Assembly: GCA_030693335.1 (NCBI GenBank)
Contig: JAUYAU010000011.1
Coordinates: 248,001 to 312,000, forward strand
From: Sulfuricurvum sp.
Lineage (GTDB): Bacteria > Campylobacterota > Campylobacteria > Campylobacterales > Sulfurimonadaceae
Direction: 5' to 3'
DNA: 64,000 nt
The first letter of the stretch is position 1; each line of letters starts with the position of its first letter. The position numbers and the translations under genes were made by a program. The notes under the pieces are model-generated. The model searched no databases. It saw only the letters and a program-made list of their open reading frames with translations, and was not told where the DNA came from. Below, in pieces: positions 921-29,212 of this stretch.

Positions 921-1625
921 CTAGTGTGGAGTTGGAGCATCCAACATTTGTTTGAAACCAACTTCTTTACACCATGCAGCAGTCAAATCAAATGCAGCAG
1001 ATGCAGTATCGAGATTTTTCTGGATTAGATCCATTTTCTTTTTAAACTTTTTCTCAATAGCAGAGTCAAGTGTTGCAGTTCCGCCTGAAGCTGTATATTT
1101 TTTAAGGAATCGGTCTTTGATCCCTTCTTCAATAGCAGGCTTACCAACAGTACCTAATGCACCAAACAATGCACCCAACATCGCCATATTTGTAGCGAGT
1201 TCAGTTCCTGCTTGTTCAATAGCAAACTTAGTAAAGTCTCTTGTAAGAACTTTTACGTTCAAATCATCTAAAATCTTTTTATCTTCATCCGTCAAAAGAT
1301 CTGTATCACTATTAATGATAACAAGACCATTTTCTTTAATACCGGCATAAAAAGGCATTGTGTATGATTTACCCATAGTAATAACTTGTGGGTGATAAAT
1401 CATAACGATATCTGGATAGATAACTTCACCTCTGTCATAAACAGGTACCGTTCCAATTCTTGCATAACTCTCAGATGGAGCCATACGCTTTTCAGCACCA
1501 AAAAAAGGATTTGATACAGCATAATAACCAGCAGTGTCTGCCGCAGTTGCTGCGATATGCGCAGCAGTAACTGCTCCTTGCCCACCTAGAGCAGGCATTC
1601 TTATTTTAATTGAATCTTTTGACAT
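921..1625 (-). CDS. porG: 2-oxoacid:ferredoxin oxidoreductase gamma subunit, cluster 1 (pyruvate type by gene order)
   Basis: This 234-residue protein carries the gamma-domain signature near its N-terminus (ALGGQGAVTAAHI, about residues 12-24), followed by FFGAEKRMAPSE and YPDIVMIYHPQVI, typical of the gamma chain of archaeal-type POR/KGOR. The gamma subunit packs against alpha and beta and helps bind coenzyme A. It is the last gene of a leftward operon E-D-A-B-G; its ATG overlaps the porB stop (TAATG), implying translational coupling. Its paralogue forG at 18198 is clearly similar along its full length but substantially diverged. The substrate (pyruvate versus 2-oxoglutarate) is inferred only from gene order, as I recall it from Hydrogenobacter (porEDABG versus forDABGE). 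Confidence 0.85.
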   Translation of the reverse strand: MSKDSIKIRMPALGGQGAVTAAHIAATAADTAGYYAVSNPFFGAEKRMAPSESYARIGTVPVYDRGEVIYPDIVMIYHPQVITMGKSYTMPFYAGIKENGLVIINSDTDLLTDEDKKILDDLNVKVLTRDFTKFAIEQAGTELATNMAMLGALFGALGTVGKPAIEEGIKDRFLKKYTASGGTATLDSAIEKKFKKKMDLIQKNLDTASAAFDLTAAWCKEVGFKQMLDAPTPH

Positions 1626-2491
1626 TATAAACGCCCCTCTTCTTTCAATTTTGCTAAGAGTTCTTCTGCTTCTGGTGAAACATATTTGAACGCAGCAAAT
1701 CTTTCTTTGTCTTGTTCTTTCATTTCTCTAAGTCCTTCATTAGCACTAAGGCCAATTTCAAGGATACAAGGTGTGTAGATATTAAGGAAAGTAGGCCCAA
1801 CGTATCTAGCAACAAAAATAGCTTCTCTAACCGCTTTAGCGACTGCTTTAGGTGCAGAAGCTGTCATGTTCATAGAGTAATGACAACCAGAAGTAACAGC
1901 GAGTTCCCACATTTTTACTTTTTCAAACTTTTTACCAGTAGGTGCCATTTTGAAAACTTGACCTTTTGGAGTTGAACCACTTTCTTGTCCACCAGTATTT
2001 GCATAAACTTCGTTATCAAAACAAATAGTTGTGATGTTTTCTTGTCTAAAAAATGATTGCAATGTATAGTCAAGACCGATATCAACTGTAGCACCGTCTC
2101 CCGCTAAAACAACAACGTCTTTTTCAATATCTGGAAATCTCCAGTCCAATACTCTTTTGATACCAGTTGCAACTGCATTTTGGTTACCAAAAAGTGAATG
2201 CACCGTATGAAGTGCAATGTGTGGGAACATTAGAGATGTACAACCTGTTGAGTTAACAATAACTGTATCTTCAGGTTTAGGAAGTGCAGCTAGTACATAT
2301 CTCAATGCAGCAGCTTCAGGACAACCAGCACAAAGTGAGTGTTCTTCAAGCAACTCTTTTGTTTCAGGAAGTTCTTTGATACCACGTTTGTCTGTATTCT
2401 CAGCCCACGTAGCGTTTTCCTCAAGATCAATGATCTCTTTAGGCATAATGTCTCTAAATTCAGGATTGATTTTATAGATATTAGTTCCCAT
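1625..2491 (-). CDS. porB: 2-oxoacid:ferredoxin oxidoreductase beta subunit (TPP-binding), cluster 1
   Basis: This 288-residue beta chain binds thiamine pyrophosphate and the proximal [4Fe-4S] cluster. The TPP motif starts with GDG at 131-133 and ends with the conserved Asn at 160 (DNEVYANTGGQ). Four cysteines fit the cluster ligands: C54 and C57 (CAGC), C84 (STGC) and C242 (TPC). The alpha subunit supplies the other half of the active site. It lies between porA (2 bp upstream) and porG (1-nt overlap). Together the operon reversibly makes acyl-CoA + CO2 + reduced ferredoxin from a 2-oxoacid; in an autotroph it would run in the carboxylating direction. Confidence 0.88.
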   Translation of the reverse strand: MGTNIYKINPEFRDIMPKEIIDLEENATWAENTDKRGIKELPETKELLEEHSLCAGCPEAAALRYVLAALPKPEDTVIVNSTGCTSLMFPHIALHTVHSLFGNQNAVATGIKRVLDWRFPDIEKDVVVLAGDGATVDIGLDYTLQSFFRQENITTICFDNEVYANTGGQESGSTPKGQVFKMAPTGKKFEKVKMWELAVTSGCHYSMNMTASAPKAVAKAVREAIFVARYVGPTFLNIYTPCILEIGLSANEGLREMKEQDKERFAAFKYVSPEAEELLAKLKEEGRL

Positions 2492-2492
2492 A

Positions 2493-3695
2493 TTATGCTC
2501 CTTTTCCAGAGTTAATTTTTTCCATAACTTCTCTAAGAATTGCTTCAGCTGGCATACTCATACCACCCGCAACTCTTGGTCCACCGACGATTTCAGTTTC
2601 AGATTTTCCATAAAGTGCGCCTCTTACTTCTTTTGCCAACCATCCAACAACGTTGAACTCAGGTACAAATGCAGTTTTAACACCTTTTAATGCTTCAAGA
2701 AGCTCTGCTTCCGGGAAAGGTCTGATGGTTCTTAACTTAATAACTTTAGTTTTAATTCCCAATTTTGTCAATTCTCTGTTTGCTTCTTTTGCTTGATACG
2801 ATGCTGTACCACAAGCAATGAATGCGATTTCAGCATCTGCATCACCAGTAACATGTACAAGACCTTTAAGGAAATGTTTTGCGTAAGGAACAGAACGCTC
2901 TACCGCTGATCTGATTTCCCACTGCCAAGATGCATGTGTTGCATACGAGATGTAGTTTGATTTCATTACGAATGGATCACGTAGGAAACGACCCGGAGGT
3001 GTTTCAGAATCGATCGGAGGCAATGGTGATTTGTATGGATCATATGGGAAAAGCGCGATGTCATCTTCTGGAAGCATGACTGACTCTCTCGTATGTGATA
3101 CAAAGAATCCATCAACAACGGTAATGATTGGAACGTGAACATCAGGCTTTTCTGCTACAACGAATGCTGCAATCGACATGTCGAAGAGTTCTTGTACGTT
3201 TTCTGCATACCAAATCTGACAGCCTGTTTCTAGCATATAAGAAACTTCCAAGTTGTCCGGTTGAATAGTAAGTGGTGAGTTAATACCACGAGCCATCAAA
3301 ATAAGTTGACATGGAATTCTTGTACCTGACCACTGAGCAAAGTTTTCCATTGCTCTCAGTGTTCCCGGTCCTGAAGTTGTAGTAATTGTTCTAGCACCTG
3401 CCATTGCACAACCAGCAACCTCAGACATTACGCCAAACTCGTTTTCACCTCTAAAGTATACGCCTACATAACCTTCTGCCCAAAGTTCACCGATAAGGTG
3501 TGCTGCTTCAGATTGTGGGGTAATCGGGTATGATACAGATGCATCAACTGTACATCTTTTTACTGCTTCTTTTAAAACTTCAGAACCAGTCATAAAGTGC
3601 TTAGTTCTAGGAGCTTCGAAAAGCATATGGTCTGCTGTAACTAGCGTTTGTCCAGACCAATTTTTTGTTTCTGTCATGTCACTTCGTTTACTCAT
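2493..3695 (-). CDS. porA: 2-oxoacid:ferredoxin oxidoreductase alpha subunit, cluster 1
   Basis: This 400-residue alpha chain contains the pyrimidine-binding YPITPQSE motif (about residues 56-63), the GENEFG segment that supplies the TPP-activating glutamate, TSGPG, and a conserved IQPDN. C-terminal IRPFPE marks the transketolase C-like domain. Length and motifs fit the alpha subunits of five-subunit enzymes. It differs from the paralogue at 16094 in the segment around the active-site glutamate (RGENEFGVM here, RAEEELGTM there), so the two probably use different 2-oxoacids. Translation starts at an ATG with an AGGAGA-type ribosome site 15 bp after porD. Confidence 0.87.
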   Translation of the reverse strand: MSKRSDMTETKNWSGQTLVTADHMLFEAPRTKHFMTGSEVLKEAVKRCTVDASVSYPITPQSEAAHLIGELWAEGYVGVYFRGENEFGVMSEVAGCAMAGARTITTTSGPGTLRAMENFAQWSGTRIPCQLILMARGINSPLTIQPDNLEVSYMLETGCQIWYAENVQELFDMSIAAFVVAEKPDVHVPIITVVDGFFVSHTRESVMLPEDDIALFPYDPYKSPLPPIDSETPPGRFLRDPFVMKSNYISYATHASWQWEIRSAVERSVPYAKHFLKGLVHVTGDADAEIAFIACGTASYQAKEANRELTKLGIKTKVIKLRTIRPFPEAELLEALKGVKTAFVPEFNVVGWLAKEVRGALYGKSETEIVGGPRVAGGMSMPAEAILREVMEKINSGKGA

Positions 3696-3710
3696 AATAA
3701 TCTCCTATTT

Positions 3711-4280
3711 CTATAGTTTTAGCTCTGATTTTACTTCTTTAGCTATTTTGATGAACTTTTCTAGTTCATGAGAGTGCATATCTCTTAATGTTGCCATTGC
3801 ATCTTCATGTCCTGACAAGCCACAAATTGCGATAGTATAACAATCCGTTTCTGCTCTTACAATTTTCAAAGCTACGTTTGCATAATGACAATGAACACCA
3901 ATAAATATTGCTGCTTTGATATTGTTATGCCAAATTGTTAAGTTTGGATGATTTGGATTGATCTCTACTTCAGCATCAATCTTTGGATACTTTGGTCTGT
4001 AATCGTACATTGGAATCATATTTGCATTAAGAACTTCAGACATTTCTTTGATAAGCTTTGCTTTTTTCTTAGACTCTTCATTGTAACCATATAATACTTG
4101 TGGACCAGGAAAAATAGTTGCATTTTTACTTGTCAACATTACTTTAGCAATTTCTCTCATTGCAATTTCTTCATCTACCACTTCTGTTAATAAAAGTGCT
4201 TTTCCTTCTGGTGGTGTAATTACACCTTCATACACAGCCGTAGGATACGGTGAATAATACGCTGGGCCTTGATTTGCCAT
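3711..4280 (-). CDS. porD: 2-oxoacid:ferredoxin oxidoreductase delta subunit, cluster 1
   Basis: The 189-residue protein is clearly homologous to the 237-residue forD at 15286: both have IFPGPQ, MPDYRPKYPKIDxE or its MYDYRPKYPKIDAE equivalent, INPNHPNLTI, and IFIGVHCHYAN. It lacks about 20 N-terminal and 35 C-terminal residues present in forD. No FeS cysteine motif is visible, unlike the delta ferredoxin subunit of four-subunit enzymes; the FeS role is taken by the separate porE. This arrangement is the five-subunit type known from Aquificales and some Campylobacterota. The exact role of this subunit is not known to me. Confidence 0.75.
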   Translation of the reverse strand: MANQGPAYYSPYPTAVYEGVITPPEGKALLLTEVVDEEIAMREIAKVMLTSKNATIFPGPQVLYGYNEESKKKAKLIKEMSEVLNANMIPMYDYRPKYPKIDAEVEINPNHPNLTIWHNNIKAAIFIGVHCHYANVALKIVRAETDCYTIAICGLSGHEDAMATLRDMHSHELEKFIKIAKEVKSELKL

Positions 4281-14671: not shown

Positions 14672-15070
14672 TTAATCGTCTTCATCCTCATCATCGATAC
14701 CAAGATTATCTATGAATTGTTCTGCCAATCTATTAGCTTTCATATAAAATTTATCACTAATCTCCGGGATAAAAAGCTCATCAATTGTCTCTTTAAAAAG
14801 TTTCAGCCAACGTTCAAAATGTTCGTGAGACAGTGGTCCAATAAAGGCATGTGGCGGAAAAGGGTCCCCACCATAACCCCGCTTGCCTGTCATCATAAGA
14901 TCCCAAAATTTGTACAAAGTATTTAGATGCTCGTGCCATTTACCATTATTTAAATCATTGCCTAAGGATTTAATAAAAATGGGTGCAAGTAGGCAATCTT
15001 TAAGAACAGTACCGTAAAACTGGCGTACCATTTCTTCTATCTTACCTCTATCAACTGTATCGTACGGCAT
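14672..15070 (-). CDS. Group III truncated hemoglobin
   Basis: A truncated globin of about 132 residues. I start it at the ATG at 15070, which has a strong AGGAG ribosome site; an ATG at 15112 would add 14 residues without such a site. Conserved globin features include FYGTVLKD, W-H with H-L in KWHEHL, FW in the next helix, YGGDPFPPHAFI, and LSHEHFERWL containing the presumed proximal His. Group III trHbs of Campylobacter (Ctb) bind O2 and NO and moderate nitrosative or oxygen stress. The acidic tail (DEDEDD) is unusual. It is divergent from forD across 215 bp holding two inverted repeats. Confidence 0.85.
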   Translation of the reverse strand: MPYDTVDRGKIEEMVRQFYGTVLKDCLLAPIFIKSLGNDLNNGKWHEHLNTLYKFWDLMMTGKRGYGGDPFPPHAFIGPLSHEHFERWLKLFKETIDELFIPEISDKFYMKANRLAEQFIDNLGIDDEDEDD

Positions 15071-15120
15071 ACTCTCTCCTGTCATTGATGATGATATGAT
15101 ACAATATTTCATATAAGTAC

Positions 15121-15285: not shown

Positions 15286-15999
15286 ATGACGAAACGAGTA
15301 ACGCAAGGTCCGGCAGGGTACATGCCACAGTCGGCACCATCCATGGGAGTCGAGCTTGCACCGAAAGGTCAAGGTTTGCTTTATGGAAATGTTGTCACTG
15401 AAGAAGAAGCAATGAGAGATGCTGCTATAGCATTACTTACACTGGCTAATCCAACAATCTTTCCTGGTCCTCAAATTCTATGGGACTGGAGAGATGATGT
15501 TGCAGAAAAAGCTGCTGCTCTATTAGAGCTTGCATCTGAGATTCCAAACTGTAAAATTATTCCTATGCCAGACTATCGTCCTAAATATCCAAAAATTGAC
15601 GTTAAGGCTGAGATCAATCCAAATCACCCGAACCTTACAATCTTAGATAACAAAATCAAAGCTTGTATTTTTATCGGCGTACACTGTCACTATGCAAACC
15701 TTACACTAAGAATGATCCGTGCAGGTACAGATTGTTATACAATTGCTCTATGTGCTTATATGGGACATGAAGAAGCAATGGCATCAATTAATGATCTACA
15801 CGCAAGTGATCTTAGAAGATTTAAAGAGATCGTTATTGAAGAAAGAAAGAAATTGGGTATTGAGTGGACTCCAACTGAACCACCTAGAAATCCATCATTA
15901 CCAAAAGAAGATAACAGTACGTTGTCTCCAGTTGATTATGGCGAGTACAGAAGTCTCATCATGACTAAAAAAGGTGAGCACGTTACTGACGTTGAGTAA
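15286..15999 (+). CDS. forD: 2-oxoacid:ferredoxin oxidoreductase delta subunit, cluster 2 (2-oxoglutarate type by gene order)
   Basis: The 237-residue homologue of porD shares the core IFPGPQ, MPDYRPKYPKID, INPNHPNLTIL and IFIGVHCHYANL. It carries extra residues at both ends, including a C-terminal tail of about 35 residues. It opens the rightward D-A-B-G-E operon behind AAGGAGTC. The role of this subunit type is not established to my knowledge. By the gene order I recall for Hydrogenobacter forDABGE, this cluster would act on succinyl-CoA/2-oxoglutarate. Confidence 0.75.
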   Translation: MTKRVTQGPAGYMPQSAPSMGVELAPKGQGLLYGNVVTEEEAMRDAAIALLTLANPTIFPGPQILWDWRDDVAEKAAALLELASEIPNCKIIPMPDYRPKYPKIDVKAEINPNHPNLTILDNKIKACIFIGVHCHYANLTLRMIRAGTDCYTIALCAYMGHEEAMASINDLHASDLRRFKEIVIEERKKLGIEWTPTEPPRNPSLPKEDNSTLSPVDYGEYRSLIMTKKGEHVTDVE

Positions 16000-16008
16000 G
16001 GTTTAAAC

Positions 16009-16067
16009 TAAATTAGTTACGATAGGCCAAATTAGTAAAGACACTAGCAGGCATAGATTACATGTCA
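16009..16067 (+). repeat. Decayed direct duplication of the start of forA
   Basis: The 94-bp gap between forD and forA contains about 58 bp that align with the beginning of forA (16091-16150), offset by 82-83 bp: TTACGA, AATTAGTAAAGACA and CATGT stretches recur in the same order, with roughly ten mismatches and one 1-nt deletion. The copy has lost the ATG (ATT) and the reading frame, so it is a non-coding relic of a small tandem duplication. Confidence 0.8.
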
Positions 16068-16093
16068 CTGCAGTTGAATAAAGGAGAAAGTAA

Positions 16094-17275
16094 ATGAGTT
16101 ACGAAAGACCAAAATTAGTAAAGACATTAGTAGACATAAACTACATGTTAAAAGAGGCTCCAAGAAAGCAGCATTTTATTACAGGTGCTCAAGCAATGGC
16201 GGAAGCTGTTAAAAGAGCAAACGTAGATATGGCGATTGCTTACCCAATTACGCCACAATCTGAGGTAATGCACCTTGTTGGTGATATTTTTCACCAGGGT
16301 CACATTAAAGAGTACTACAGAGCTGAAGAAGAGCTTGGTACGATGTCGGCTATTGCCGGTGCTTCAAGAGCAGGTGTCCGTTTGTTTACAGCAACATCAG
16401 GGCCAGGACTTCTTAGAGGTCTAGAAGCAATCGTATCATGGTCAGGACACCGTGTTCCTGCTGTACTTGGTATCTTGACTCGTGTTGTTAATGCACCGTT
16501 GTCAATTCAGCCGGACAATATTGAAATGGCATACATGATGCATTGTGGTGCTGTTATGTTGCATGCTGAGAATCAGCAAGATGTATTTGATATGACATTG
16601 GCTGCATTTGCAATTGCAGAAAAAGTTGATGTTTATATTCCTGTAGCCGTTGCAACAGAAGGTTTCTTTGTAACACACGCAAAAGGTTACGTACAAATGA
16701 CATCTGATGAATTGGCATTAACTCCTTTTGATTCAGTTGCTTCACCGGTTCCAGCTATGGATAATGAAACTCCACCAGCTAGAATTCAAAGAGATGCCCC
16801 TGTTCAAAAATCAAACTTCATGAGTTACTTGATTCATGCTGTATGGCAACAAGAGATCTGGGATTCAAATAAGCGTGCTATGAAATATGTTTATGAGTAT
16901 CTTGGCGGACCAATCGAAGTTCTTAACCCTGAATCTGAAGTATTTGTTGTTGCATCTGGTTGTGCTGCTGCACAAGCTAGAGAAGCGCACAGAGCATCAC
17001 AAGAATTGGGCTTAAGTGTTGGTTTGATTAAAGTAAGAGCAATCAGACCATTCCCGGTTGATGAAATCTGCGCTGCAGCAAAGAATGCGAAAAAACTAAT
17101 TGTTCCTGAGCATAACATTATCGGTTGGTTGGCTCAAGAAGTCAAAGCTGCTATTCCTAATGGTGGTATTGTTGTTGGTGGTCCAAGAGTATACGGTGGT
17201 ATGACACTTCCAGTTGAATTGATTATGAAAGAAATTCATACTGCTCTTGGTTTAGAATTCAATCTTAAATTATAA
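16094..17275 (+). CDS. forA: 2-oxoacid:ferredoxin oxidoreductase alpha subunit, cluster 2
   Basis: The 393-residue alpha subunit has YPITPQSE, RAEEELG with the catalytic-activation glutamate, ATSGPG, the APLSIQPDN stretch and IRPFPVDE in the C-terminal domain. It is colinear with porA at 2493 but diverged. Start: ATG behind AAAGGAG. A non-coding relic of its own 5' end lies just upstream. The subunit forms the TPP-dependent core with forB and gamma. Confidence 0.87.
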   Translation: MSYERPKLVKTLVDINYMLKEAPRKQHFITGAQAMAEAVKRANVDMAIAYPITPQSEVMHLVGDIFHQGHIKEYYRAEEELGTMSAIAGASRAGVRLFTATSGPGLLRGLEAIVSWSGHRVPAVLGILTRVVNAPLSIQPDNIEMAYMMHCGAVMLHAENQQDVFDMTLAAFAIAEKVDVYIPVAVATEGFFVTHAKGYVQMTSDELALTPFDSVASPVPAMDNETPPARIQRDAPVQKSNFMSYLIHAVWQQEIWDSNKRAMKYVYEYLGGPIEVLNPESEVFVVASGCAAAQAREAHRASQELGLSVGLIKVRAIRPFPVDEICAAAKNAKKLIVPEHNIIGWLAQEVKAAIPNGGIVVGGPRVYGGMTLPVELIMKEIHTALGLEFNLKL

Positions 17276-17287
17276 AAAGGGGATAAA

Positions 17288-18196
17288 ATGAGTTTAAAAT
17301 ATGTAACTCCGGTAGCAATGTTTAAAAAATATTTACCAAAAGATTATGTGGAATTAGTTGACTTTGGTCCATTCGGAAAAACTCAGGATGAGGCTGGCCC
17401 AGGTAATATGGGACAGTTCAAAGAGTTGATGGAAGAGCATCCTATGTGTTCTGGTTGCTGGATGGCATACTACATCAGATTGATTTTTGCTTCTCTTCCA
17501 TGTCCTGAAGAAACTGTAACATTGGGTACAGCTGGATGTGGCCGTTTGGCTATTTCACAAGCTGCAGTTCCATTTATCTATGGTAACTACGGTGACCAAA
17601 ATGCTATGGCATCTGGTTTGTCTCGTGCATTCCGTTTGCGTTTCCCTGATAAACATAAAGACGTTATCACAATCGCCGGTGATGGCGGTACTATGGATAT
17701 CGGTTTCTCTATGACTATGCACTCATGGATCCGTGGTGAAAGATTCACAACGATCATGCTTGATAATGAAGTTTATGGAAATACTGGTGGTCAAGAGAGC
17801 GGTATGTCTCCTAAGGGTGCTGTATTGAAAATGGCTCCGGGTGGTAAACAATTTGATAAAATGCCTGCAACTGCATTAGCAAAAGCTGCTGGTTGTGTGT
17901 ACATTGTTAAAATGTCACCTACAAATATCAAAAAAGCTGCAAAAATCATCAGAAGAGCGATTTTTGTTGCTAGAGAAGTAGGACCTACGTTCATTCATGC
18001 GTATACTTCATGTAACATCGAATATTCTATTCCTACTGAGGAAGTATTCGCAGATGCAAGAGCACAAGAAAAAGATCGTTTCCAATTTGAAGAGTATATG
18101 ACTGATGCAGCAAAAGAAGTAATTGATCGAATTGAAGCTGAAGAAAAAGCTGCACACAGAGCTAAAAAAGGTGTAGTTGCAGAGGAGGTTAACTAA
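17288..18196 (+). CDS. forB: 2-oxoacid:ferredoxin oxidoreductase beta subunit (TPP-binding), cluster 2
   Basis: This 302-residue beta chain has the TPP motif GDGGTMDIG with DNEVYGNTGGQ and the FeS ligands C54 and C57 (CSGC), C84 (AGC) and a cysteine in TSCNIE. These positions equal those in porB. Compared with porB it has a longer, charged C-terminus (EAEEKAAHRAKK). Twelve bp separate it from forA (ribosome site AAAGGGG), and forG begins 1 bp after its stop. Confidence 0.88.
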   Translation: MSLKYVTPVAMFKKYLPKDYVELVDFGPFGKTQDEAGPGNMGQFKELMEEHPMCSGCWMAYYIRLIFASLPCPEETVTLGTAGCGRLAISQAAVPFIYGNYGDQNAMASGLSRAFRLRFPDKHKDVITIAGDGGTMDIGFSMTMHSWIRGERFTTIMLDNEVYGNTGGQESGMSPKGAVLKMAPGGKQFDKMPATALAKAAGCVYIVKMSPTNIKKAAKIIRRAIFVAREVGPTFIHAYTSCNIEYSIPTEEVFADARAQEKDRFQFEEYMTDAAKEVIDRIEAEEKAAHRAKKGVVAEEVN

Positions 18197-18197
18197 T

Positions 18198-18905
18198 ATG
18201 GTAGCAAGAAAAAGATATAACATACGTATTTCTGGGCTAGGTGGGCAAGGTGTTGTTACCACTGCTCACATTCTTGGTTCAACTATGGATAATGCGGGTA
18301 AATATGCGTCATTGGTACCATTTTTTGGTTCTGAGAAAAGAATGGCCCCTGTTGAAGCTTATGTAAGAGCTTCATCAGAGCCAATTTATGAAGTAGGGGA
18401 AGTTGTTTACCCTGATATTATCATGATCTACCACTCTCAAGTTATTACTCATGGTAAATCATATACAATGCCTTTCTATACTGGTCTTAAGCCAGACAGT
18501 TTGATTATTATTAACTCTGACAGAGATGTTCTTGATGAAGATGATAAAAAAGTTCTTAGAGAATTGAATGCAAAAGTTGTTCAATTTGATGCTACTGACT
18601 TAGCTGTAAAAGTTGCTGGTACTGAGCTTGCAACGAATATGGCAATGATGGGTATGCTTCTTGGTCTTACAGAACTTGTAACAGAAGCTCACATTGAAAA
18701 AGCGGTTAAAGAAAGATTCTTGGGAACTTCATTCGTTTCTTCAGGTGGAACAGCTATGCTTGACTCTGCTATCGAGAAGAAATTTAAGAAAAAAGAAGAA
18801 TTACTTCAAAAAAATATGGATGTTATCAACAAAACTTTTGAGATGGCTAATTCTGTAGATTTATCTGGTAGTGATTTAATTATCCAACTAGCACCAAATC
18901 TATAA
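18198..18905 (+). CDS. forG: 2-oxoacid:ferredoxin oxidoreductase gamma subunit, cluster 2
   Basis: The gamma chain (235 residues from the ATG at 18198) has SGLGGQGVVTTAHI, PFFGSEKRMAPVE and YPDIIMIYHSQVITHGKSY. The ATG follows GAGGAGG with good spacing; a TTG further upstream would read through the ribosome site and overlap forB, so I reject it. It completes the catalytic set with forA and forB and is followed 15 bp later by the ferredoxin subunit. Confidence 0.86.
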   Translation: MVARKRYNIRISGLGGQGVVTTAHILGSTMDNAGKYASLVPFFGSEKRMAPVEAYVRASSEPIYEVGEVVYPDIIMIYHSQVITHGKSYTMPFYTGLKPDSLIIINSDRDVLDEDDKKVLRELNAKVVQFDATDLAVKVAGTELATNMAMMGMLLGLTELVTEAHIEKAVKERFLGTSFVSSGGTAMLDSAIEKKFKKKEELLQKNMDVINKTFEMANSVDLSGSDLIIQLAPNL

Positions 18906-19221: not shown

Positions 19222-19695
19222 TTAACGGGTGTATTTTGGATTTTTTCCAACAGCTGATTGTACATCCTCATTTGCGTCTTGACTCAATTTATCCAATGTT
19301 TCAATCGGTGTGCTTGGATTCACAGCTACGGATGCGCGAATATTAGCATCTTCGTCTTTACTGAATTTATTTAAAAGCCCAGCAGGTGTATTTGGATTTC
19401 CAGCGATCCAGTATGCCATTAAACTGTCGTTGCTTAATTTTAGTAAAGTCTCTAGAGATGTATTTAAATGTTCTGCAACAAATTCTCTAACATACACACT
19501 ATCGTCCTTGCTTAACTTATCCAATGTTGCAGATGATGTATTTACATTAGCTGCAACTCTCATTCGAACAAATTGGCTCTCATCTTCACTTAACTTATCC
19601 AATATTTCGGTAGATGTATCTGGATTTTGTGCAAGTATTGTTCGTACACTTTCATCATTGCTTTGAACCAAGTCTAATTCTTGTGTATTTGTCAT
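19222..19695 (-). CDS. Leucine-rich-repeat-variant (LRV) protein
   Basis: The 157-residue protein consists of about five tandem 24-residue repeats with the pattern NPxTxxExLxKLSxDExxxVRxxVAxN, the LRV type of alpha/3-10 solenoid first described in Azotobacter. The Azotobacter protein has a cysteine cluster holding a [4Fe-4S] centre; no cysteine occurs here. The repeats probably form a protein-binding surface. In Azotobacter the gene lies in the nif region, but no nif gene is present in this window. Start: ATG behind AAAGGTAA. Confidence 0.75.
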   Translation of the reverse strand: MTNTQELDLVQSNDESVRTILAQNPDTSTEILDKLSEDESQFVRMRVAANVNTSSATLDKLSKDDSVYVREFVAEHLNTSLETLLKLSNDSLMAYWIAGNPNTPAGLLNKFSKDEDANIRASVAVNPSTPIETLDKLSQDANEDVQSAVGKNPKYTR

Positions 19696-20848: not shown

Positions 20849-21051
20849 AACGGTCCTCCATATAATTCAAGATATATAAATAGTATATCTGAATTAATAA
20901 AAATGTAGTAAAAACTAAACAAATTAAACCAAAAATTAATAAGAAAAAAATAACTTTAAGTCTCATATTTAGCTGATCTAATATTAATTTTTTAAAAACT
21001 TAGTTTTAGTCAATAATGCTAAAATACGCAATTGAAATTAAAAGGATTATT

Positions 21052-22308
21052 ATGAAAGTTACTGTAGAAAAAATCGATGATATAAATTTTATTATGAGCG
21101 GTTCAGTTGAGAATAGTGTGATCGAAGAAAAAGTGAATAAATTTAAAGAACAAGCGGCTAAAGAGCCAAAAAATGATGATTCTAAAGATGAAAATATTGA
21201 GCAGGCTGCGGCGGCACAAGTATTTAAAGAATTCATTGATGCTGGTATAAAAGAAGCAAAAATCGAAGTAGCAAACATTCTTGGTCAGCCTGGACTAAAA
21301 AAGTATGAACAACGAGACAATAGCATCTATTTTGAAGTGGAAGTAGCGATCTCTCCGGAGATTAATGTAGATATCGATTATACAGATATTATACCTACAT
21401 ATTCGCGACCAAAAGCGACACCTGAAGCCGTGGATGCCAAGCTTACAGCATTCGCACAACAACATGCCCCTTTTATGACGATTGAAACACCAAGAGCTAT
21501 TGAAAATGGCGATGTTGCTGTTATCGATTTTACAGGTTTTATTGATGGTAAGACTTTTGAGGGCGGAAGTGCAGAAAAATTCAATCTTAAGATCGGTTCT
21601 AACACGTTTATTCCTGGCTTTGAAGAGCAGCTCATTGGGATGGAGTACAACCAAACTAAAGGTGTTATCGTAAGGTTTCCTGATGATTATTCAGCTGAAG
21701 ATTTAGCTGGTAAAGAAACCAAATTTATGGTTAAACTTCATGAGATTCAAGAGCAAAAAGCTGAAAAATTGGATGATGCCTTTGCTAAAAAAGTGTATGG
21801 AGATCAGACTGCTACCCTTGATAAGCTTAGAAATCAACTCTCAGAACAAGTTACAGCTGAGGAATTGTCACAAATCTACATGAGTGATCTCAAACCTAAA
21901 ATCGTAGAAGGTCTACTCTCTAAGTTTGACTTTACCTTGCCAAATAACATAGTCGAGCAAGAGATTGATGCGAAAGTTCGTGAAAAAACACGATCATTTA
22001 GCGAAGAACAGCATAAGTCGTATATGGAAGATAAGGGTAAATTTAAAGAACTAAGAGAGTCTGTTCGAGAAGAAGCAAGAGCAAGTATTAAAAAGTCACT
22101 TATTGTGGAAGCATTGGCTAAAAAAGAGGGTATTGTTGTTCATGATCAGGAAGTGATTGGTGCACTTGGCTATCAAGCTACGATGACCGGTCAAGACCCG
22201 CAACGATTGGTACAATACTATCAAGATAATAATCTGATGGTATCCGCAAAAATGGGGCTCATGGAAGACAAGCTATTTGGAGTGATGCTGGGATTTCATA
22301 AAGCATAA
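21052..22308 (+). CDS. Trigger-factor-like chaperone lacking the ribosome-binding signature
   Basis: The protein (418 residues from the ATG at 21052 behind AAAGGATT) has trigger factor architecture: an N-terminal domain, an FKBP-type PPIase domain (about 150-235; DVAVIDFTGFIDGKTFEGG, FIPGFEEQLIGM) and an alpha-helical C-terminal domain. The ribosome-binding loop of genuine trigger factor (GFRxGKxP) is missing; its place is taken by an acidic, polar stretch (EPKNDDSKDEN, about residues 40-50). Housekeeping tig usually sits beside clpP, which is absent here, so this is probably a second, specialised copy that does not dock on ribosomes. An LRR gene begins directly after its stop. Confidence 0.78.
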   Translation: MKVTVEKIDDINFIMSGSVENSVIEEKVNKFKEQAAKEPKNDDSKDENIEQAAAAQVFKEFIDAGIKEAKIEVANILGQPGLKKYEQRDNSIYFEVEVAISPEINVDIDYTDIIPTYSRPKATPEAVDAKLTAFAQQHAPFMTIETPRAIENGDVAVIDFTGFIDGKTFEGGSAEKFNLKIGSNTFIPGFEEQLIGMEYNQTKGVIVRFPDDYSAEDLAGKETKFMVKLHEIQEQKAEKLDDAFAKKVYGDQTATLDKLRNQLSEQVTAEELSQIYMSDLKPKIVEGLLSKFDFTLPNNIVEQEIDAKVREKTRSFSEEQHKSYMEDKGKFKELRESVREEARASIKKSLIVEALAKKEGIVVHDQEVIGALGYQATMTGQDPQRLVQYYQDNNLMVSAKMGLMEDKLFGVMLGFHKA

Positions 22309-23049: not shown

Positions 23050-23451
23050 ATGTTAATAGAACTAAGTGAGATACAACAAGTAGCAAATGAAGTCATGAAT
23101 ATGTTACACGAAGAAGAGATCGAAATTATCAATGAGTTTCATGATGCGGTTGTAGCCAAAGACATAGAAAAAATTGATGAGCTTTTTAAAGTTGTTTTAT
23201 TTGATGTCGAGGATCACTTCAAAACTGAAGAAGATATGATGGAACAAAATGAATACAGCTATTTTCAAGTGCACAAAAGTGATCATGATACGATGAGAGA
23301 AAAACTCAAAAAATTTCATAAACGATGGGAAATACTAAAAGGGCCTACTGAGTTGCAAGGTTTTTTAGAGAAAGATTTCAAGAGTTGGCTGAAATTGCAT
23401 ATTTCAAAATGGGACACTGAAATGGCTTTGCATCTCAGTGGCGGCAATTAA
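23050..23451 (+). CDS. Single-domain bacterial hemerythrin (1)
   Basis: The 133-residue four-helix protein has hemerythrin ligands: His in MLHEEE, H and E in DHFKTEEDMM, two His in VHKSDHD, and H with D in LHISKWDTEMA. Bacterial hemerythrins bind O2 at a di-iron site and serve in O2 storage, delivery or sensing. It is preceded by its own -10-like box. A second hemerythrin lies 0.8 kb downstream on the other strand; the two share ligands and helix layout but are otherwise diverged. Confidence 0.82.
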   Translation: MLIELSEIQQVANEVMNMLHEEEIEIINEFHDAVVAKDIEKIDELFKVVLFDVEDHFKTEEDMMEQNEYSYFQVHKSDHDTMREKLKKFHKRWEILKGPTELQGFLEKDFKSWLKLHISKWDTEMALHLSGGN

Positions 23452-23458
23452 TACCTTT

Positions 23459-23848
23459 TTAGTGTTCTTCTTGCGTGTAGGGGTCGAATTTCCCTATTTC
23501 CTCCAGCGCTAGATCAAAATCCTCGGGATTTAGTTCAAAAGCATTAATCCCCAAATCTGCTATCAAATAGAGTTTGTCGGTATCTTTTGGGGCAACTAAA
23601 GCAAATATTGTTTGCTTGGGCTTCTTTTCTTTGATTTCTTTTAGGAATATAATTCCTTCCATTGCTTCTACGCTTATATCACTGATAATCATATCGTAGT
23701 GATTGGTATCAAGGTACTTTAGCGTTTCGTCGTTACTTAGTGCTTTGTCGACTTTATTAAACGCTTGGTTGAACATCGGAGTGTTTGAATCGAATAGTGA
23801 GTTCTCTTCTGCGATAAAAAGTACATTCCATTTTTTTGTTGAGAGCAT
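23459..23848 (-). CDS. Stand-alone response-regulator receiver-like protein
   Basis: From the ATG at 23848 (ribosome site AAAGGAAAG) the protein has 129 residues. Longer upstream readings lack a ribosome site. It fits a CheY-like receiver: NVLFIAEE in place of the acidic pocket, YDMIISDISVEAMEGI holding the phospho-acceptor Asp, and a late lysine in APKDTDK. No output domain follows. The first acidic pair is weak (AEE), so signalling may be altered. Overlaps nothing; convergent with the hemerythrin at 23050. Confidence 0.65.
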   Translation of the reverse strand: MLSTKKWNVLFIAEENSLFDSNTPMFNQAFNKVDKALSNDETLKYLDTNHYDMIISDISVEAMEGIIFLKEIKEKKPKQTIFALVAPKDTDKLYLIADLGINAFELNPEDFDLALEEIGKFDPYTQEEH

Positions 23849-23922
23849 TTCTTTCCTTTTACTAAATACATACAATTTTATGAATTGTACAGTATTCTTC
23901 CAAGACATAACAAGGAGATTAG

Positions 23923-24303
23923 ATGAGCGAACAAGCAAGAATACTCGCAGAGATCAATGCGATAATAATGAATATTTTAAAAACGGGATCTGCGTCAGTG
24001 GAAGAAGCGGATAAGATTGATGAGCTTGAAGCGTTATTGCAGCAACAAAAGTGTTTTAAAGAGACTACTGATGGTGCGCACGCGAATCAAGGAGAAGAGA
24101 TAGCCATACTGTTCTTTACCGATCGCTATATGGAAGCTATTAATAAGATGTGTGAGTGTGAGATTAGTCCAGATGATTTCTTTGCATTCGTTGATTATCA
24201 TTATGATGAGGATCATGAAGATGAAGCGCTAGTAGAGATGTTTACAAATGCGTTTGTTGCAGATGTAAACAATGCCTATCGATTAAAGTCTAAACCTGAG
24301 TGA
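23923..24303 (+). CDS. Uncharacterised acidic protein
   Basis: The 126-residue protein is strongly acidic in its C-terminal half (DYHYDEDHEDEALVEMF) and probably helical. The start follows AACAAGGAGA with good spacing. Its 3' end overlaps the convergent hemerythrin gene by 14 nt. No domain was recognised. Confidence 0.55.
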   Translation: MSEQARILAEINAIIMNILKTGSASVEEADKIDELEALLQQQKCFKETTDGAHANQGEEIAILFFTDRYMEAINKMCECEISPDDFFAFVDYHYDEDHEDEALVEMFTNAFVADVNNAYRLKSKPE

Positions 24304-24685
24304 GATACAAAGCCATGGCGGTATCCATGGTTTGGATGTGGTGAATACGCCATGGGGTTAAATTGCCTTTACTGTACGCATAGATAGCTTTTGGCTCTTG
24401 GGTTCTTTCAAAATAACCTACCAAAGATGTAAGTTCTTGTATATGTCTGTCGTGTTCACTTTTGTGTTGAGCATAGTCTGGATACGCTCCTTTTTCCATC
24501 AAATTGTTTTCATTCGTAAAGTGCACAGTTGTGTGCTCAAGCAGCTCGTCTAATAGCTTGGATATTCTTGCTACGTCACTATTGGCTATAGCCGTATCGA
24601 GTCTGTTAATGATGAGCATCTCTTCTAAATGGGTGTCGTTCATGCTGGGTATCGCTACCATCGGTAATTGTTCGTCTGTTGTCAA
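24290..24685 (-). CDS. Hemerythrin (2), last gene of the clpS-like/AAA operon
   Basis: The 131-residue hemerythrin has ligand motifs in NDTHLEEM, VHFTNENNLM, QHKSEHDRH and IHHIQTMDTAM. It probably starts at a TTG behind AAAGG, 14 bp after the AAA+ gene; an ATG eight codons later is possible. Being in one operon with a chaperone-like ATPase suggests O2-linked control or iron/O2 buffering for that system. The 3' end overlaps a convergent gene by 14 nt. Confidence 0.78.
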   Translation of the reverse strand: MTTDEQLPMVAIPSMNDTHLEEMLIINRLDTAIANSDVARISKLLDELLEHTTVHFTNENNLMEKGAYPDYAQHKSEHDRHIQELTSLVGYFERTQEPKAIYAYSKGNLTPWRIHHIQTMDTAMALYLTQV

Positions 24686-24699
24686 TTTTTTGCCTTTAA

Positions 24700-27309
24700 T
24701 TATGTGTTAAGTATTTCATCCAATTCATCTGCATAAATAATCTCTTTTTCAAACAGCAGTTTTGACAGCTTTTCTATTGTATTCCAATGTTCATTCACCA
24801 AATTAACAGTGTTGTTTTGACCTTCAATCATCCATTTTTCAAGTGCAGAATCGATTTTTTCATGATAATGTTTTGTCTCTTTGTTGGCTTTTGCATCTGT
24901 CACACCATTGATATTGATGTATCCGACTTCTTTATCCATACCATAATGGGCTATTGCTGCATAGGCATCACGTGTTGCTTGTTGCAGGTCGTTGGAGGCA
25001 CCTGTGTCCAAACCGTCAATATCACCAAAGCGTTTTATTTGTGCTGTTCTTCCTGCTAAAGATACGCATATTTTGTCTTTAAAATCTTTAACGGTCATGT
25101 TGTCTTGTATATCATTATAATTTTCGGAAACGAAATGTTCATTATTATCTCTCGGAGTTAAACTGACATGTTCAATATGAACATGAGGCATTAAAATTTT
25201 AGAGATAACGGCACGTCCTGCCTGATAAATCGCCGTTTCTTGGAACATCTCTTCAGGAGATAAATAGGAGTGTCGCTCACCGTATTTGATATTGTTGAGC
25301 TGATCGATCAAAATGTCCTGAGTAATGGCACTTAACCCATGACGCAAACAATAATATGATGCTTCTTTGCCTAGCAGTTCAAGCTGTGCACCTGTAAATC
25401 CTGCTGTGTACATCAGCAATTTGTTCATATCAAATTCACCGCTTGTCGGTTTTTTTTCAATGATACTGTCCAAGAAGTATTTTCGTGCATCTTTATCGAG
25501 GTTATTGATCTCGATATGGATTTCGACCCTTCCCGGTCGGATGATTGCGCTGTCAATATTCTCTTTGTAATTGGTTGCTGCTATAACAAAGATATCTTCA
25601 CCTTTTCTCGCAGAAAATCCATCCATTTCGGATAAGAGTTTGTTGATCGCCACTTCTTTGCCATTTTCACTGCCGCGTTTTCCGATCGTATCAATCTCAT
25701 CGATAAAGATAATGGCCGGTGCGTATTCTTTGGCTTTGGAAAAAATTTGTTTGGTCTTATCAGGCTGCAAAAGTTCAAGTCCGGTGACAGAGATAAACGG
25801 CAACTCCGCTTCCTTGGCAAAGGCTTTGGCCAGCATCGTTTTTCCCGTACCCGGAGGTCCATACAAAAGCATCCCTTTGGGTGGTTCGATGTCAAAACTT
25901 TCTAAGCGTTTAGGCTCTTTAAAAAAGTTAATAACCTCTCTAAGGCGTTGTTTGGCTTTGTGGTGACCTGCGATATCATCAAAAGAGACTTTAGGTATAT
26001 CAAAGACCAGTCCGTCTTCACTGAAATCTTTGATCCTGATGACTTGCATGAATCTACAACTGACGACTTTGTAGGTAATGACACCATTTTTATCGGTAAT
26101 ACTGTCCTTGATATCCAGAGTAGTATTTTTTCTGAAAAGCTCTTTGACCAGTGTTTCATCTTCGATGAGTGGATTGACTCTCTCATTTATGAATTTCATA
26201 CACTCTTTGGAAAGCGAGATTTGTATCTGCTTGAAATTCTTGAGTAACTTATCGGAATTTTGAATGTATTCGGTGATTCGGTTAAAGAAAATCGTACTTA
26301 CTTTCTCTTTGAGACGTCTGGCGTCCAGCTCGGGAGCAAAGTTGAGCATTTGTATTTTTAAGAAGTTGTCAAAATTATTGGCAACGATAAATTCGATCTT
26401 ATACTGTGCATAAAAATCGTCTTTGTAGGTTAAAAATACCTGCTTGGTTATTTTTTCAAATGCTTTATACTCAAGCTTGTTAAATAAGACAATGTTTGCT
26501 TTTGAAAATCTGGAGACGAGCTCGGGGACGATGGCTTCTTGAACCCCACCGCTTCGGCTGTCACGCTTTTTTTCGCGTTTTATGGCTTCGAGAATCATCG
26601 ATTCAGCTTGGATATAGTCTTTTTTGACCAAATCTTTGAATCGGTAATCCAGATAGAGCTCTTTGCCTAAGCTGGTTGTGATGATAAACAAAGTTTCGGT
26701 AAAGTCTACCCAATACGTCGCATTTTCATCGCTGTAAATTATGTCCGGGTCTTCATTACACGGTTCATCTGTTACCTTGTCCCAACCGCATGCATCGCGC
26801 ATTCGCCCGCCCTCAAAGATGGAAAGAAGGTTGTTTTGAATGATATTGTCACACTTTTCAAAGGCATCAAGGACGATGACCGCTTTTGGATTTCTATGAA
26901 CAAAGCCTGTTAATTGACCGACACCAAACCCTTTCCAACCTGTAGGATATCCGTACAGTTCTCCCCCGTTTTGCTGATGATATTGAGTCATATCAAATTT
27001 CATGATTTTGTATTTTGGCAAATGTTTGGACATAAGCTCAGCCAAGAAAGTCTTACCCGTTGCAGGAGAACCCAAAAAGAGATAGGTAGCCTTAGGCCCT
27101 TTTTCATCTTTGATGTTATTTTTCATACTGTTGGCTACAGTAGTGATCGCTTGTTCTTGTCCGAAGAGTTCTTTGGAGAGTTCTTCTTTGAATTTTCTGG
27201 CAAATTGGATGCTGTTTTGAGCTTCACTCAAGGACGAGTCGTCATCCTCTTCATGGTTTTTTTCATGTTTTGCAATTTGTGCTTTGATCAATTCTTCTGT
27301 ACTGGTCAT
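24700..27309 (-). CDS. Double AAA+ protein: ClpA/B-like module fused to an FtsH-like module with a dead protease site
   Basis: 869 residues from the ATG at 27309 (GAGGAAG ribosome site, 1 bp after the clpS-like stop). Module 1 (about 45-400) is ClpA/ClpB-like: Walker A GSPATGKT at 80-87, but Walker B reads VIVLDAFEK, with Ala in place of the catalytic Glu. Module 2 (about 440-680) is FtsH-like: GPPGTGKT 484-491, IIFIDEID 533-540, arginine fingers in RPGR 592-594. The M41 peptidase region follows (690-869), yet HEXXH is replaced by YQAGR at 695-699 while GASND is kept. No transmembrane segment precedes module 2. It is thus probably an unfoldase or remodeller, not a protease. Operon: clpS-like, this gene, hemerythrin. 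Confidence 0.85.
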   Translation of the reverse strand: MTSTEELIKAQIAKHEKNHEEDDDSSLSEAQNSIQFARKFKEELSKELFGQEQAITTVANSMKNNIKDEKGPKATYLFLGSPATGKTFLAELMSKHLPKYKIMKFDMTQYHQQNGGELYGYPTGWKGFGVGQLTGFVHRNPKAVIVLDAFEKCDNIIQNNLLSIFEGGRMRDACGWDKVTDEPCNEDPDIIYSDENATYWVDFTETLFIITTSLGKELYLDYRFKDLVKKDYIQAESMILEAIKREKKRDSRSGGVQEAIVPELVSRFSKANIVLFNKLEYKAFEKITKQVFLTYKDDFYAQYKIEFIVANNFDNFLKIQMLNFAPELDARRLKEKVSTIFFNRITEYIQNSDKLLKNFKQIQISLSKECMKFINERVNPLIEDETLVKELFRKNTTLDIKDSITDKNGVITYKVVSCRFMQVIRIKDFSEDGLVFDIPKVSFDDIAGHHKAKQRLREVINFFKEPKRLESFDIEPPKGMLLYGPPGTGKTMLAKAFAKEAELPFISVTGLELLQPDKTKQIFSKAKEYAPAIIFIDEIDTIGKRGSENGKEVAINKLLSEMDGFSARKGEDIFVIAATNYKENIDSAIIRPGRVEIHIEINNLDKDARKYFLDSIIEKKPTSGEFDMNKLLMYTAGFTGAQLELLGKEASYYCLRHGLSAITQDILIDQLNNIKYGERHSYLSPEEMFQETAIYQAGRAVISKILMPHVHIEHVSLTPRDNNEHFVSENYNDIQDNMTVKDFKDKICVSLAGRTAQIKRFGDIDGLDTGASNDLQQATRDAYAAIAHYGMDKEVGYININGVTDAKANKETKHYHEKIDSALEKWMIEGQNNTVNLVNEHWNTIEKLSKLLFEKEIIYADELDEILNT

Positions 27310-27310
27310 A

Positions 27311-27613
27311 TTAAACTTCCTCAATCAAAAACCACAGAGAAAGGCCTTCTTTTTTAGCTTGATCTTCAACGATCTTTGCTTTGCTTTCTGCTATTTCAAA
27401 CATGTACGCACCGCAAATTCCTTCGCCCTCTGTAAGAATGTCATTGGTAATGGCTTCTGCTTTTTCGCGGCTTTTATGAAATACTTCCATGAGGACTCTA
27501 ATACTGAATTCCCATGAGATGTGTTTATCATAGTGCATAGAGACGAGATACAATTTTGGTTTGCCTAATTGTGGGAAAAAATTAGTTCTATGAGTTCTAA
27601 TTGTGACTGCCAT
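27311..27613 (-). CDS. ClpS-like adaptor with altered N-degron pocket
   Basis: The 100-residue protein aligns with ClpS over its length: a KLYLV strand, WEFSIRVLMEVFHKSREKA, EGEGICGAYMFEIAESKA and a final EEV. In ClpS the N-degron pocket uses the Asn and Asp of VNDDYTPMEF and a later His; here the Asn position is Tyr28 and the His position is Leu60. The N-end-rule specificity is therefore probably lost or changed. It lies 1 bp upstream of the fused AAA+ gene, which it most likely serves as adaptor (inference). Start: ATG behind AGGATC. Confidence 0.78.
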   Translation of the reverse strand: MAVTIRTHRTNFFPQLGKPKLYLVSMHYDKHISWEFSIRVLMEVFHKSREKAEAITNDILTEGEGICGAYMFEIAESKAKIVEDQAKKEGLSLWFLIEEV

Positions 27614-27772
27614 GTTGATCCTGCATAATCTAAAATATATTGGTAATAGTTTTGAATTATAGTCAAAAAATAGTACATGTACTTTATAATATTTTCTTAG
27701 TAGTAGTAATATATGTAAAATTACTCTCTTTACACTATTTGCTCTTTAGAACAACGTGTGTATTATCCCGAC

Positions 27773-29212
27773 ATGACTCTTAATAACATTGCATTGCAGA
27801 CTCCTTATCTTTCATTGGATGGCGAATTTTACGATTTGACAGACCCTACACCGTTGGATGATCCTTATCTGATCAGCTTTAATCCTGAAGCTGCAAAACT
27901 GATCGATCTTGATGGAAACAGCGGTGAAGACCCCAATTTTATTGCCATGCTTAACGGTACATTTATCCCCAAAGGTTCACGCACCTTTGCCATGTGTTAT
28001 GCAGGACATCAGTTTGGCAATTACAATCATTGGCTTGGTGATGGAAGAACCATAAATCTGGGGAGCGTTCAGGGCTGGAACCTACAGTTAAAAGGCAGTG
28101 GTGAAACTCTGTATTCACGCATGGCAGATGGGCGGGCGGCTGTGCGCTCCTCTATACGTGAGTATCTAATGAGTGAATCGATGCACCATTTGGGAATACC
28201 CACAACACGAGCACTTGGTATCATCGGGTCCAAGACGAAAATTGTTCGAAATAAATTGGAGCAAGCGGCTGTTGTTATGCGTATGTCTACGAGCTGGGTT
28301 CGTTTTGGTACTTTTGAGTACTTTTATTATTCGGGTAAACATGATAAGCTTGAGATGCTTGCTCAATACGTCATTGGCGAATCGTATCCTCACTTGATAG
28401 ATGATGAGGACCGTTTTTTCAAAATGTTTTGCGAAGTAGTCGATCGTACTGCAACCTTGATTGCGCAGTGGCAAGCAATCGGGTTTAATCATGGTGTTAT
28501 GAATACCGATAACATGTCCATTGAAGGTCTGACCATCGACTATGGCCCTTTTGCGATGATGGATGATTTTAGATATGGTTATGTTTGCAACCACACAGAC
28601 CGGGCAGGGCGATATGCTTATGGAGAACAACCTAATGTTTCCTTTTGGAACCTCACCATGCTGTCCAAGGCTCTGACTCCTCTCATTGACAAAGAGCGGA
28701 TGCAAAAAAAGCTTGATGATTTCGGAGCATTTGTTTATCCAAATGCCTATGTTGATGTTATGCGTGAAAAACTGGGGCTGGTCGTCAAGCTGGATGATGA
28801 CGTCGAACTGATTACAGATTTAGTAGTGGCCCTGCATGATGTTTACGTGGATCATACTCTTTTCTTTCGAACGCTTAGCCGCTACGACGGTGACAGATCA
28901 CCCATGTACGATATTGTTATGGAACCTGTGATATTGGATAAGTGGCTTATCCGATACGATGATCGCCTCACGTATGAAACACGCACGCCAGAACAACGCC
29001 AAGAGTCGATGTTAAAGAGCAATCCAAAGTATGTTTTAAAAAATTATATGATTCAAGAAGCTATTGTGATGGCAGAGAACGGTGACTATTCGATGGTAGA
29101 TACGCTGATGCATATTGCAACGCATCCGTATGATGAACTTCCAGAGTTTGAGCGTTTCGCAGGAGATACGCCCGAAGAGTACAAAAATCTCGGACTCTCT
29201 TGCTCATCCTAA
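27773..29212 (+). CDS. selO: SelO/YdiU protein adenylyltransferase (pseudokinase)
   Basis: About 479 residues from the ATG at 27773; a GTG five codons earlier is possible, and no strong ribosome site marks either. SelO motifs are plain: CYAGHQFGNYNHWLGDGR, LKGSGETLYSRMADGRAAVR, GFNHGVMNTDNMS and IDYGPFAMMD. SelO transfers AMP to hydroxyl side chains of proteins in redox homeostasis. The C-terminus ends CSS, the place where eukaryotic SelO has selenocysteine; this is a cysteine form. Followed 19 bp later by an uncharacterised gene. Confidence 0.9.
   Translation: MTLNNIALQTPYLSLDGEFYDLTDPTPLDDPYLISFNPEAAKLIDLDGNSGEDPNFIAMLNGTFIPKGSRTFAMCYAGHQFGNYNHWLGDGRTINLGSVQGWNLQLKGSGETLYSRMADGRAAVRSSIREYLMSESMHHLGIPTTRALGIIGSKTKIVRNKLEQAAVVMRMSTSWVRFGTFEYFYYSGKHDKLEMLAQYVIGESYPHLIDDEDRFFKMFCEVVDRTATLIAQWQAIGFNHGVMNTDNMSIEGLTIDYGPFAMMDDFRYGYVCNHTDRAGRYAYGEQPNVSFWNLTMLSKALTPLIDKERMQKKLDDFGAFVYPNAYVDVMREKLGLVVKLDDDVELITDLVVALHDVYVDHTLFFRTLSRYDGDRSPMYDIVMEPVILDKWLIRYDDRLTYETRTPEQRQESMLKSNPKYVLKNYMIQEAIVMAENGDYSMVDTLMHIATHPYDELPEFERFAGDTPEEYKNLGLSCSS

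Follow-up and report, generated by a model that had tools for sequence, protein, structure and literature searches.

FtsH, ClpA/ClpB, the ClpS-type adaptors and the hemerythrins of Campylobacter jejuni are the closest described counterparts of the genes reported here. FtsH possesses a membrane anchor, an FVG pore loop and a zinc site. In the chloroplast FtsHi pseudoproteases, which are membrane-bound and single-ring, an inactive M41 domain is kept together with a working FtsH-type ATPase, and a role in a chloroplast import motor has been proposed for the inactive subunits (PMC8042743). ClpS and ClpS2 are N-degron adaptors. In the microaerophile C. jejuni, the single-domain di-iron hemerythrins HerA and HerB shield the 2-oxoacid:ferredoxin oxidoreductases POR and OOR from O2 (PMC4257069); no AAA+ partner has been described for C. 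jejuni. In this study, we analyzed a 64,000-nt stretch of DNA (hereafter, the window) from a Sulfuricurvum genome of 2.17 Mb, whose nearest relatives are Sulfuricurvum metagenome-assembled genomes (MAGs). In the window, an 869-residue protein (P), which resembles ClpA/B in one part and FtsH in another, is encoded beside two single-domain hemerythrins (H and H2). To our knowledge, the only known hemerythrin domain that controls an ATP-dependent protein-fate machine is that of FBXL5, a hemerythrin-regulated ubiquitin ligase adaptor; however, FBXL5 is eukaryotic, fused and proteolytic, and the likeness is an analogy only. We know of no described bacterial AAA+ machine tied to a hemerythrin, and a literature search found no paper uniting ClpS, hemerythrin and AAA.

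A first-pass annotation had pointed to three tightly packed genes at 24290-27613, which it read as a ClpS-like adaptor, a soluble fusion of ClpA/B-like and FtsH-like modules, and a di-iron hemerythrin. The coordinates are right. All three genes are on the minus strand, P starts 1 nt after the stop codon of the ClpS-like gene (pseudo-ClpS), and H follows 14 nt after the stop codon of P (Table 1). By both Pfam and NCBIfam, the first gene matches ClpS and the last matches bacteriohemerythrin. The observation is confirmed, and the interpretation (a substrate-selective unfoldase or remodeling machine without proteolysis, tied to oxygen or iron) is partly supported, as described below. Four features had escaped that annotation: the loss of the sensor-1 residue and a Cys-containing insert in the first ATPase ring, the deletion of the pore loop in the second ring, and H2.

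Architecture of P and conservation of its losses

As had been proposed, P is a soluble fusion. Pfam divides it into AAA_2 (residues 72-269, E 1e-22), AAA (480-602, E 4e-42) and Peptidase_M41 (690-866, E 8e-24). The top Foldseek matches are FtsH, and the structures matched by P also include solved Ycf2-FtsHi complexes. The score against the FtsH model TIGR01241 is 306 bits, far below the cut-off of 600. P does not possess an N-terminal membrane anchor or transmembrane segment: its maximum KD19 hydropathy over 19 residues is 0.89, versus 2.52 in the FtsH of the same genome. There was no match to Clp_N, the ClpS-binding N-domain, among the families listed for P, and residues 1-37 form only a short linker.

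In alignments, the counterpart of ring 1 (residues about 38-350) is the second ring of the ClpA encoded in the same genome. Ring 1 retains Walker A (GSPATGKT), the Arg finger (R267) and the sensor-2 R331, and its aromatic pore loop, W125-K126-G127, stands where ClpA has GYVG, with W125 in place of Tyr. In contrast to ClpA, the Walker B Glu is lost (LDAFEK) and the sensor-1 Asn is replaced by Ser (S213). Ring 1 is predicted to be unable to hydrolyze ATP. Between Walker B and sensor 1, the proteins of the branch to which P belongs (type A) carry an insert in which C174 and C184 are invariant, with C153 nearby; the CGW part of this insert is also present in one protein (L037) of another branch, group B. 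In ring 2, all ATPase motifs are intact (K490, T491, D537, E538, N580, R591 and R594). A six-residue deletion takes out the FtsH pore loop FVGVGA in P and in the aligned proteins of group B and of a further branch, group C. In the M41 domain, HEXXH is replaced by YQAGR, in which Tyr and Arg stand for two zinc-binding His residues, and the Asp of GASND, the third zinc ligand, is kept (D774 in all readable type-A sequences). The motifs reported at first, namely LDAFEK, YQAGR, the intact second ATPase site and GASND, were all found as described.

From this motif pattern, we predict that ATP is bound in ring 1 and turned over in ring 2, and that proteins are not cleaved. Classical threading, in which the chain is pulled through ring 2, is doubtful because the FtsH-like ring does not have an aromatic pore loop. 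Thus, the part of the first interpretation that stands is a non-proteolytic ATP-driven machine, whereas the idea of a substrate-selective unfoldase is weakened by the missing pore loop of ring 2 and the predicted non-hydrolyzing state of ring 1. P shares homology with FtsH in ring 2 and in the C-terminal domain and differs from it by the absence of the membrane anchor, the FVG pore loop and the zinc site and by an extra ClpA/B-type ring in front; it differs from ClpA/ClpB by the absence of the N-domain and by the two losses in ring 1. Judged from these residues, P is neither an active FtsH nor a ClpA. The FtsHi proteins combine an inactive M41 domain with a working FtsH-type ATPase, as P is predicted to do, but they belong to another kingdom and have lost HEXXH independently. 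At most, P may work in a manner analogous to the FtsHi subunits of the import motor.

The losses are fixed in type-A proteins. Residues were counted in 35 distinct type-A sequences, at readable positions only. The position of the first Walker B Glu (E149) is occupied by Ala or Ser in 32/32 sequences and S213 is Ser in every one. The first His of HEXXH is Tyr in 30/30 and the second is Arg in 29/30, the remaining sequence having His (YEAGH), so that the consensus is Y[EQ][AS]GR. Orthologues with 71-95% identity to P were found at 23 loci in Sulfuricurvum, Sulfurimonas, Sulfurovum and one MAG labelled Arcobacter. An intact HEXXH in close relatives, which would have pointed to recent decay, was not found; HEAGH is retained solely in relatives below about 46% identity. 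P is under strong purifying selection (dN/dS 0.03-0.06), and the fixed motifs together with a dN/dS near 0.03 rule out recent pseudogene decay. Thus, the predicted loss of proteolysis in type-A P is old and selected. Because this loss, with one ATPase ring intact, is old and conserved, P is most naturally read as an ATP-driven machine that does not cut proteins, in agreement with the machine without proteolysis suggested at first.

The soluble two-ring FtsH proteases from which P derives form a family specific to Campylobacterota. A tree built on the FtsH-like part unites type A in a single clade (100/100) and places group B beside it as sister, at modest support (93/85). Group B retains all catalytic residues (DEIEK, DEID and HEAGH). 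Group C retains HEAGH; however, the Walker motifs of both rings are degenerate in most members (GLANSGKH and FEDIEK in ring 1, GPHGMGKK and LEDID in ring 2). Therefore, protease and motor appear to have been lost in separate branches of one family: in type A the protease is gone and one ATPase ring remains, group C has HEAGH but, in most members, degenerate Walker motifs in both rings, and group B is complete. Such opposite losses in related lineages provide a natural experiment on the uncoupling of motor from protease function. These reciprocal losses, the partnership of P with H2 and the pseudo-ClpS clade were not found described in our literature search.

Co-inheritance of P with oxygen-binding proteins

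Gene presence was counted in 228 Sulfurimonadaceae genomes, of which 26, in four genera, possess a type-A P (carriers) and 202 do not. H2 was found in 24/26 carriers and in 0/202 other genomes (p 2e-30); the two carriers without a detected H2 are genomes of 82% and 89% completeness. A truncated hemoglobin (trHb) was present in 24/26 carriers versus 3/202 others (p 5e-27), H in 25/26 versus 11/202 (p 1e-23), and the response-regulator receiver domain in 21/26 versus 7/202. In the window, H2 is 1.25 kb from P, just outside the interval described at first. Across genomes, the distance from H2 to P is no more than 4 kb in 21 cases and no more than 150 bp in nine, and in eight genomes the two genes stand tail to tail with a gap of 23-36 bp. 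By TIGR02481, the window genome encodes three hemerythrins, two of them beside P. The seven di-iron ligands (five His, Glu and Asp) are all present in H of the window, as had been claimed, and in 14/14 H sequences save for one truncated end. They are also complete in H2 of the window, and each position is kept in 23-24 of 24 H2 sequences.

Thus, the link of P to oxygen-binding proteins is very strong. The tie to oxygen or iron that had been read from H holds to this extent, but the near-obligate partner is H2 and H is the looser companion. As for the neighbors expected elsewhere, H is kept in nearly all carriers, whereas pseudo-ClpS is found in half of them. The LRV-repeat and globin neighbors had raised the idea of a connection with nitrogen fixation, which was rejected: nifH was present in 5/26 carriers versus 61/202 others (p 0.36).

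Possible roles of P

The window contains two paralogous 2-oxoacid:ferredoxin oxidoreductase operons of four genes each. The plus-strand operon sits beside the trHb gene and close to the trigger factor gene (tig). CdhB-PorABG genes are present in the window genome, in 14 other carriers and in one non-carrier (G564), with Por genes 79-99% identical, and are mostly arranged as a trHb/CdhB-PorABG/tig cluster; in the 228-genome counts, the trHb gene served as a proxy for the adjoining POR/OOR operon. A 75-aa ferredoxin-like gene adjoins each operon in locus L154 and one operon in L151; it was not located in the window. In Sulfurimonas pluma, which lives in oxygen-saturated plumes, a five-subunit Aquificales-type OOR/POR reportedly replaces the usual four-subunit form and two hemerythrins are highly expressed; ClpS or proteases are nowhere mentioned in the text consulted (PMC10066037). 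By analogy, the operons in the window may encode oxygen-tolerant-type enzymes of the reverse tricarboxylic acid (TCA) cycle, the O2 tolerance being taken from the literature. Given the OOR/POR and hemerythrins of S. pluma and the protection of POR and OOR in C. jejuni, we regard the adaptation of this cycle to oxygen as the best present context of P.

Our preferred, though tentative, reading is that P acts as a soluble, ATP-driven, non-proteolytic remodeler or switch, with iron- and oxygen-linked proteins, H2 first, as its clients or regulators. P would be part of an oxygen-adaptation gene set in Sulfurimonadaceae that fix carbon via the reverse TCA cycle. Ring 1 would be a holding ring with ATP permanently bound, turnover of ATP would fall to ring 2, and the inactive M41 ring would serve as a scaffold. 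The clients that P binds and remodels may be the hemerythrins or the globin, or else Fe-S enzymes damaged by O2, for example POR/OOR. H2 may be an O2- or iron-sensing partner or an O2 buffer, and the invariant C174/C184 pair may serve as a redox or metal switch. In this reading, pseudo-ClpS most probably tunes the ordinary ClpA of the same cells. A more specific version is possible but less probable: H2 would be the dedicated sensor or cofactor of an oxygen- or iron-gated, non-proteolytic P, through which the cell's O2-binding proteins or the oxygen-labile reverse TCA cycle enzymes stay functional in air. The hosts of P are some sulfur- and hydrogen-oxidizing bacteria, and the P set offers named, testable genes for the question of how the reverse TCA cycle, which is sensitive to oxygen, can fix carbon in oxygen-rich water.

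Several points weigh against this proposal. The tie of P to H2, the globin and POR/OOR is drawn from sequence conservation and co-inheritance; the co-occurrence counts are raw and ignore phylogeny, and the carriers are confined to four genera. P and the POR cluster are at separate loci in several carriers. With no pore loop in ring 2, P may do no mechanical work on polypeptides at all. It should be mentioned that the AlphaFold model of P (pLDDT 61) is below the quality that a complex or the pore and active-site geometry would require.

The few and related carriers would also fit an aerobic-lifestyle island, in which P, the hemerythrins and the globin are independent parts inherited as a block without direct partnership. 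Gene order is fluid, and in several genomes the trHb-POR cluster is elsewhere, as this idea would allow. However, the adjacency of P and H2 with gaps of 23-36 bp is kept in eight genomes and H2 occurs in no non-carrier. Therefore, we consider a mere island rather unlikely.

The steady companions of P are di-iron, heme and Fe-S proteins. This is compatible with a role in maturation or metallation, as is a P that is apparently non-proteolytic with one active ring. Like the AAA+ cofactor-insertion chaperones of the NorQ/CbbQ/MoxR type, P would then load iron into hemerythrins, globin or POR/OOR, or re-activate it there. However, H and the HerA-like hemerythrins of C. jejuni occur without P (PMC4257069), so that P is not generally required for hemerythrin assembly, and no MoxR-like partner (VWA protein) was present among the neighbors scanned. 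A metallation role is improbable.

A further possibility concerns pseudo-ClpS, which is a ClpS by fold (PF02617, E 3e-17; Foldseek, E 5e-9) with Caulobacter ClpS 3g19 as the best PDB match (TM 0.78/0.92). Of the N-degron pocket residues of E. coli ClpS, Asn34 is changed to Tyr28 and His66 to Leu60, as had been noted at first, and Met40 is in addition changed to Trp34. The pocket is altered throughout the pseudo-ClpS clade, in contrast to ClpS/ClpS2. The C-terminal docking residues are common to both: E73 and K78, the equivalents of E. coli E79 and K84, which we take to be the ClpA-docking positions, are invariant in 10 pseudo-ClpS sequences. Pseudo-ClpS was found in 13/26 carriers and 0/202 non-carriers (p 2e-14) and is therefore tied to P at the genome level. 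In three genomes of the Sulfuricurvum type its gene adjoins P, whereas in several carriers the two lie on different contigs. The window genome also encodes a normal ClpA, with its N-domain, and a normal ClpS. Because the docking residues are kept and P has no N-domain, pseudo-ClpS may act on ordinary ClpA and not on P; we consider the two targets equally likely. A ClpS2-like family in other Sulfurimonadaceae genera (L116-L126), in which NDD and the His are intact but Trp replaces Met40, is likely the ancestor type of pseudo-ClpS.

The adaptor idea of the first-pass annotation can be put as follows: pseudo-ClpS picks a new substrate class for P, which unfolds it without cutting. The occurrence of pseudo-ClpS in carriers only and its adjacency to P in three genomes favor this idea, as does the aromatic pore loop kept in ring 1, since pore loops grip the N-terminal extension of ClpS (PMC9663308). 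However, pseudo-ClpS is undetected in half of the carriers, the Clp N-domain is missing from P, ring 2 has no pore loop, and the kept docking residues can be matched with the ordinary ClpA. The adaptor function is quite improbable. A defense role of P is hardly probable at all: a DUF4062-STAND gene adjoins an intact P relative at three group-B loci, with homologues at one more, and DUF4062 proteins are TIR-like antiphage NADases (PMC13174449), but no such gene is beside any type-A P examined, where the neighbors are O2-binding proteins, and the best defense models match the AAA core only, far under the cut-off (IteA, 102 of 510 bits), so that P was rejected as a member of a known defense family.

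Neighboring genes and other branches of the family

The features of the window are collected in Table 1.

Table 1 Features of the window around the gene for P
Feature	Position	Strand	Remarks
Second, paralogous 2-oxoacid:ferredoxin oxidoreductase operon (PorG, PorB, PorA, CdhB-like)	921-4280	minus	same gene order as in L151 and L154, with protein starts nearly identical
Truncated hemoglobin (Bac_globin)	14672-15112	minus	co-occurs with P
2-oxoacid:ferredoxin oxidoreductase operon (CdhB-like subunit, PorA, PorB, PorG)	15286-18905	plus	
LRV-repeat protein	19222-19695	minus	recurs in the gene set
Trigger factor	21016-22308		
H2, second single-domain hemerythrin	23050-23451	plus	convergent with P; near-obligate partner
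Stand-alone response-regulator receiver domain	23459-23872	minus	recurrent neighbor
Small protein, family not recognized	23923-24303	plus	recurrent neighbor; 14-base overlap with H
H, single-domain hemerythrin	24290-24685	minus	TTG start; next gene downstream of P; all seven di-iron ligands present
P, soluble double-AAA+ pseudoprotease (predicted), 869 aa	24700-27309	minus	ATG start; ClpA/B-D2-type ring 1, FtsH-type ring 2 and degenerate M41
Pseudo-ClpS, ClpS paralogue, 100 aa	27311-27613	minus	N-degron pocket lost (N34Y, M40W, H66L); ClpA-docking residues kept
SelO (protein AMPylase)	27758-29212		divergent from the P operon

The trigger factor gene is beside an LRR gene and the POR operon, and this order is the same in most carriers examined. 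SelO is also near P in several other loci. At four loci, a gene near P (10216-11118 in L013) encodes a fusion of a protoglobin domain with a PsiE-like membrane domain. A protein of 123-130 aa is encoded just upstream of P in L011, L012, L014, L016, L017, L024, L026 and L029, in the position of the ClpS-like gene in the window; the L013 member of this family matches a NikA-like model, and in L016 H2 sits between the gene for this protein and P.

A phage or plasmid origin of P was also considered and rejected: searches of a phage and a plasmid collection gave FtsH-level similarity only. Group B (L037-L041 and L056-L060) consists of fully intact soluble two-ring FtsH-like proteases. At L056, L058 and L059, the adjoining gene encodes DUF4062 and NACHT/STAND domains, and L060 possesses genes similar to those of L059; it is possible that group B is the protease arm of a defense system. 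Most members of group C (L042-L054, L061-L066 and L070-L072) would be proteases with a dead motor. Among the Sulfurimonadaceae, nifH is present in 14/16 group-C carriers versus 52/212 others, in raw counts that ignore kinship. A version of 447-451 aa, with the FtsH-like ring and M41 domain alone, is present in another family of the order (L067-L069 and L074).

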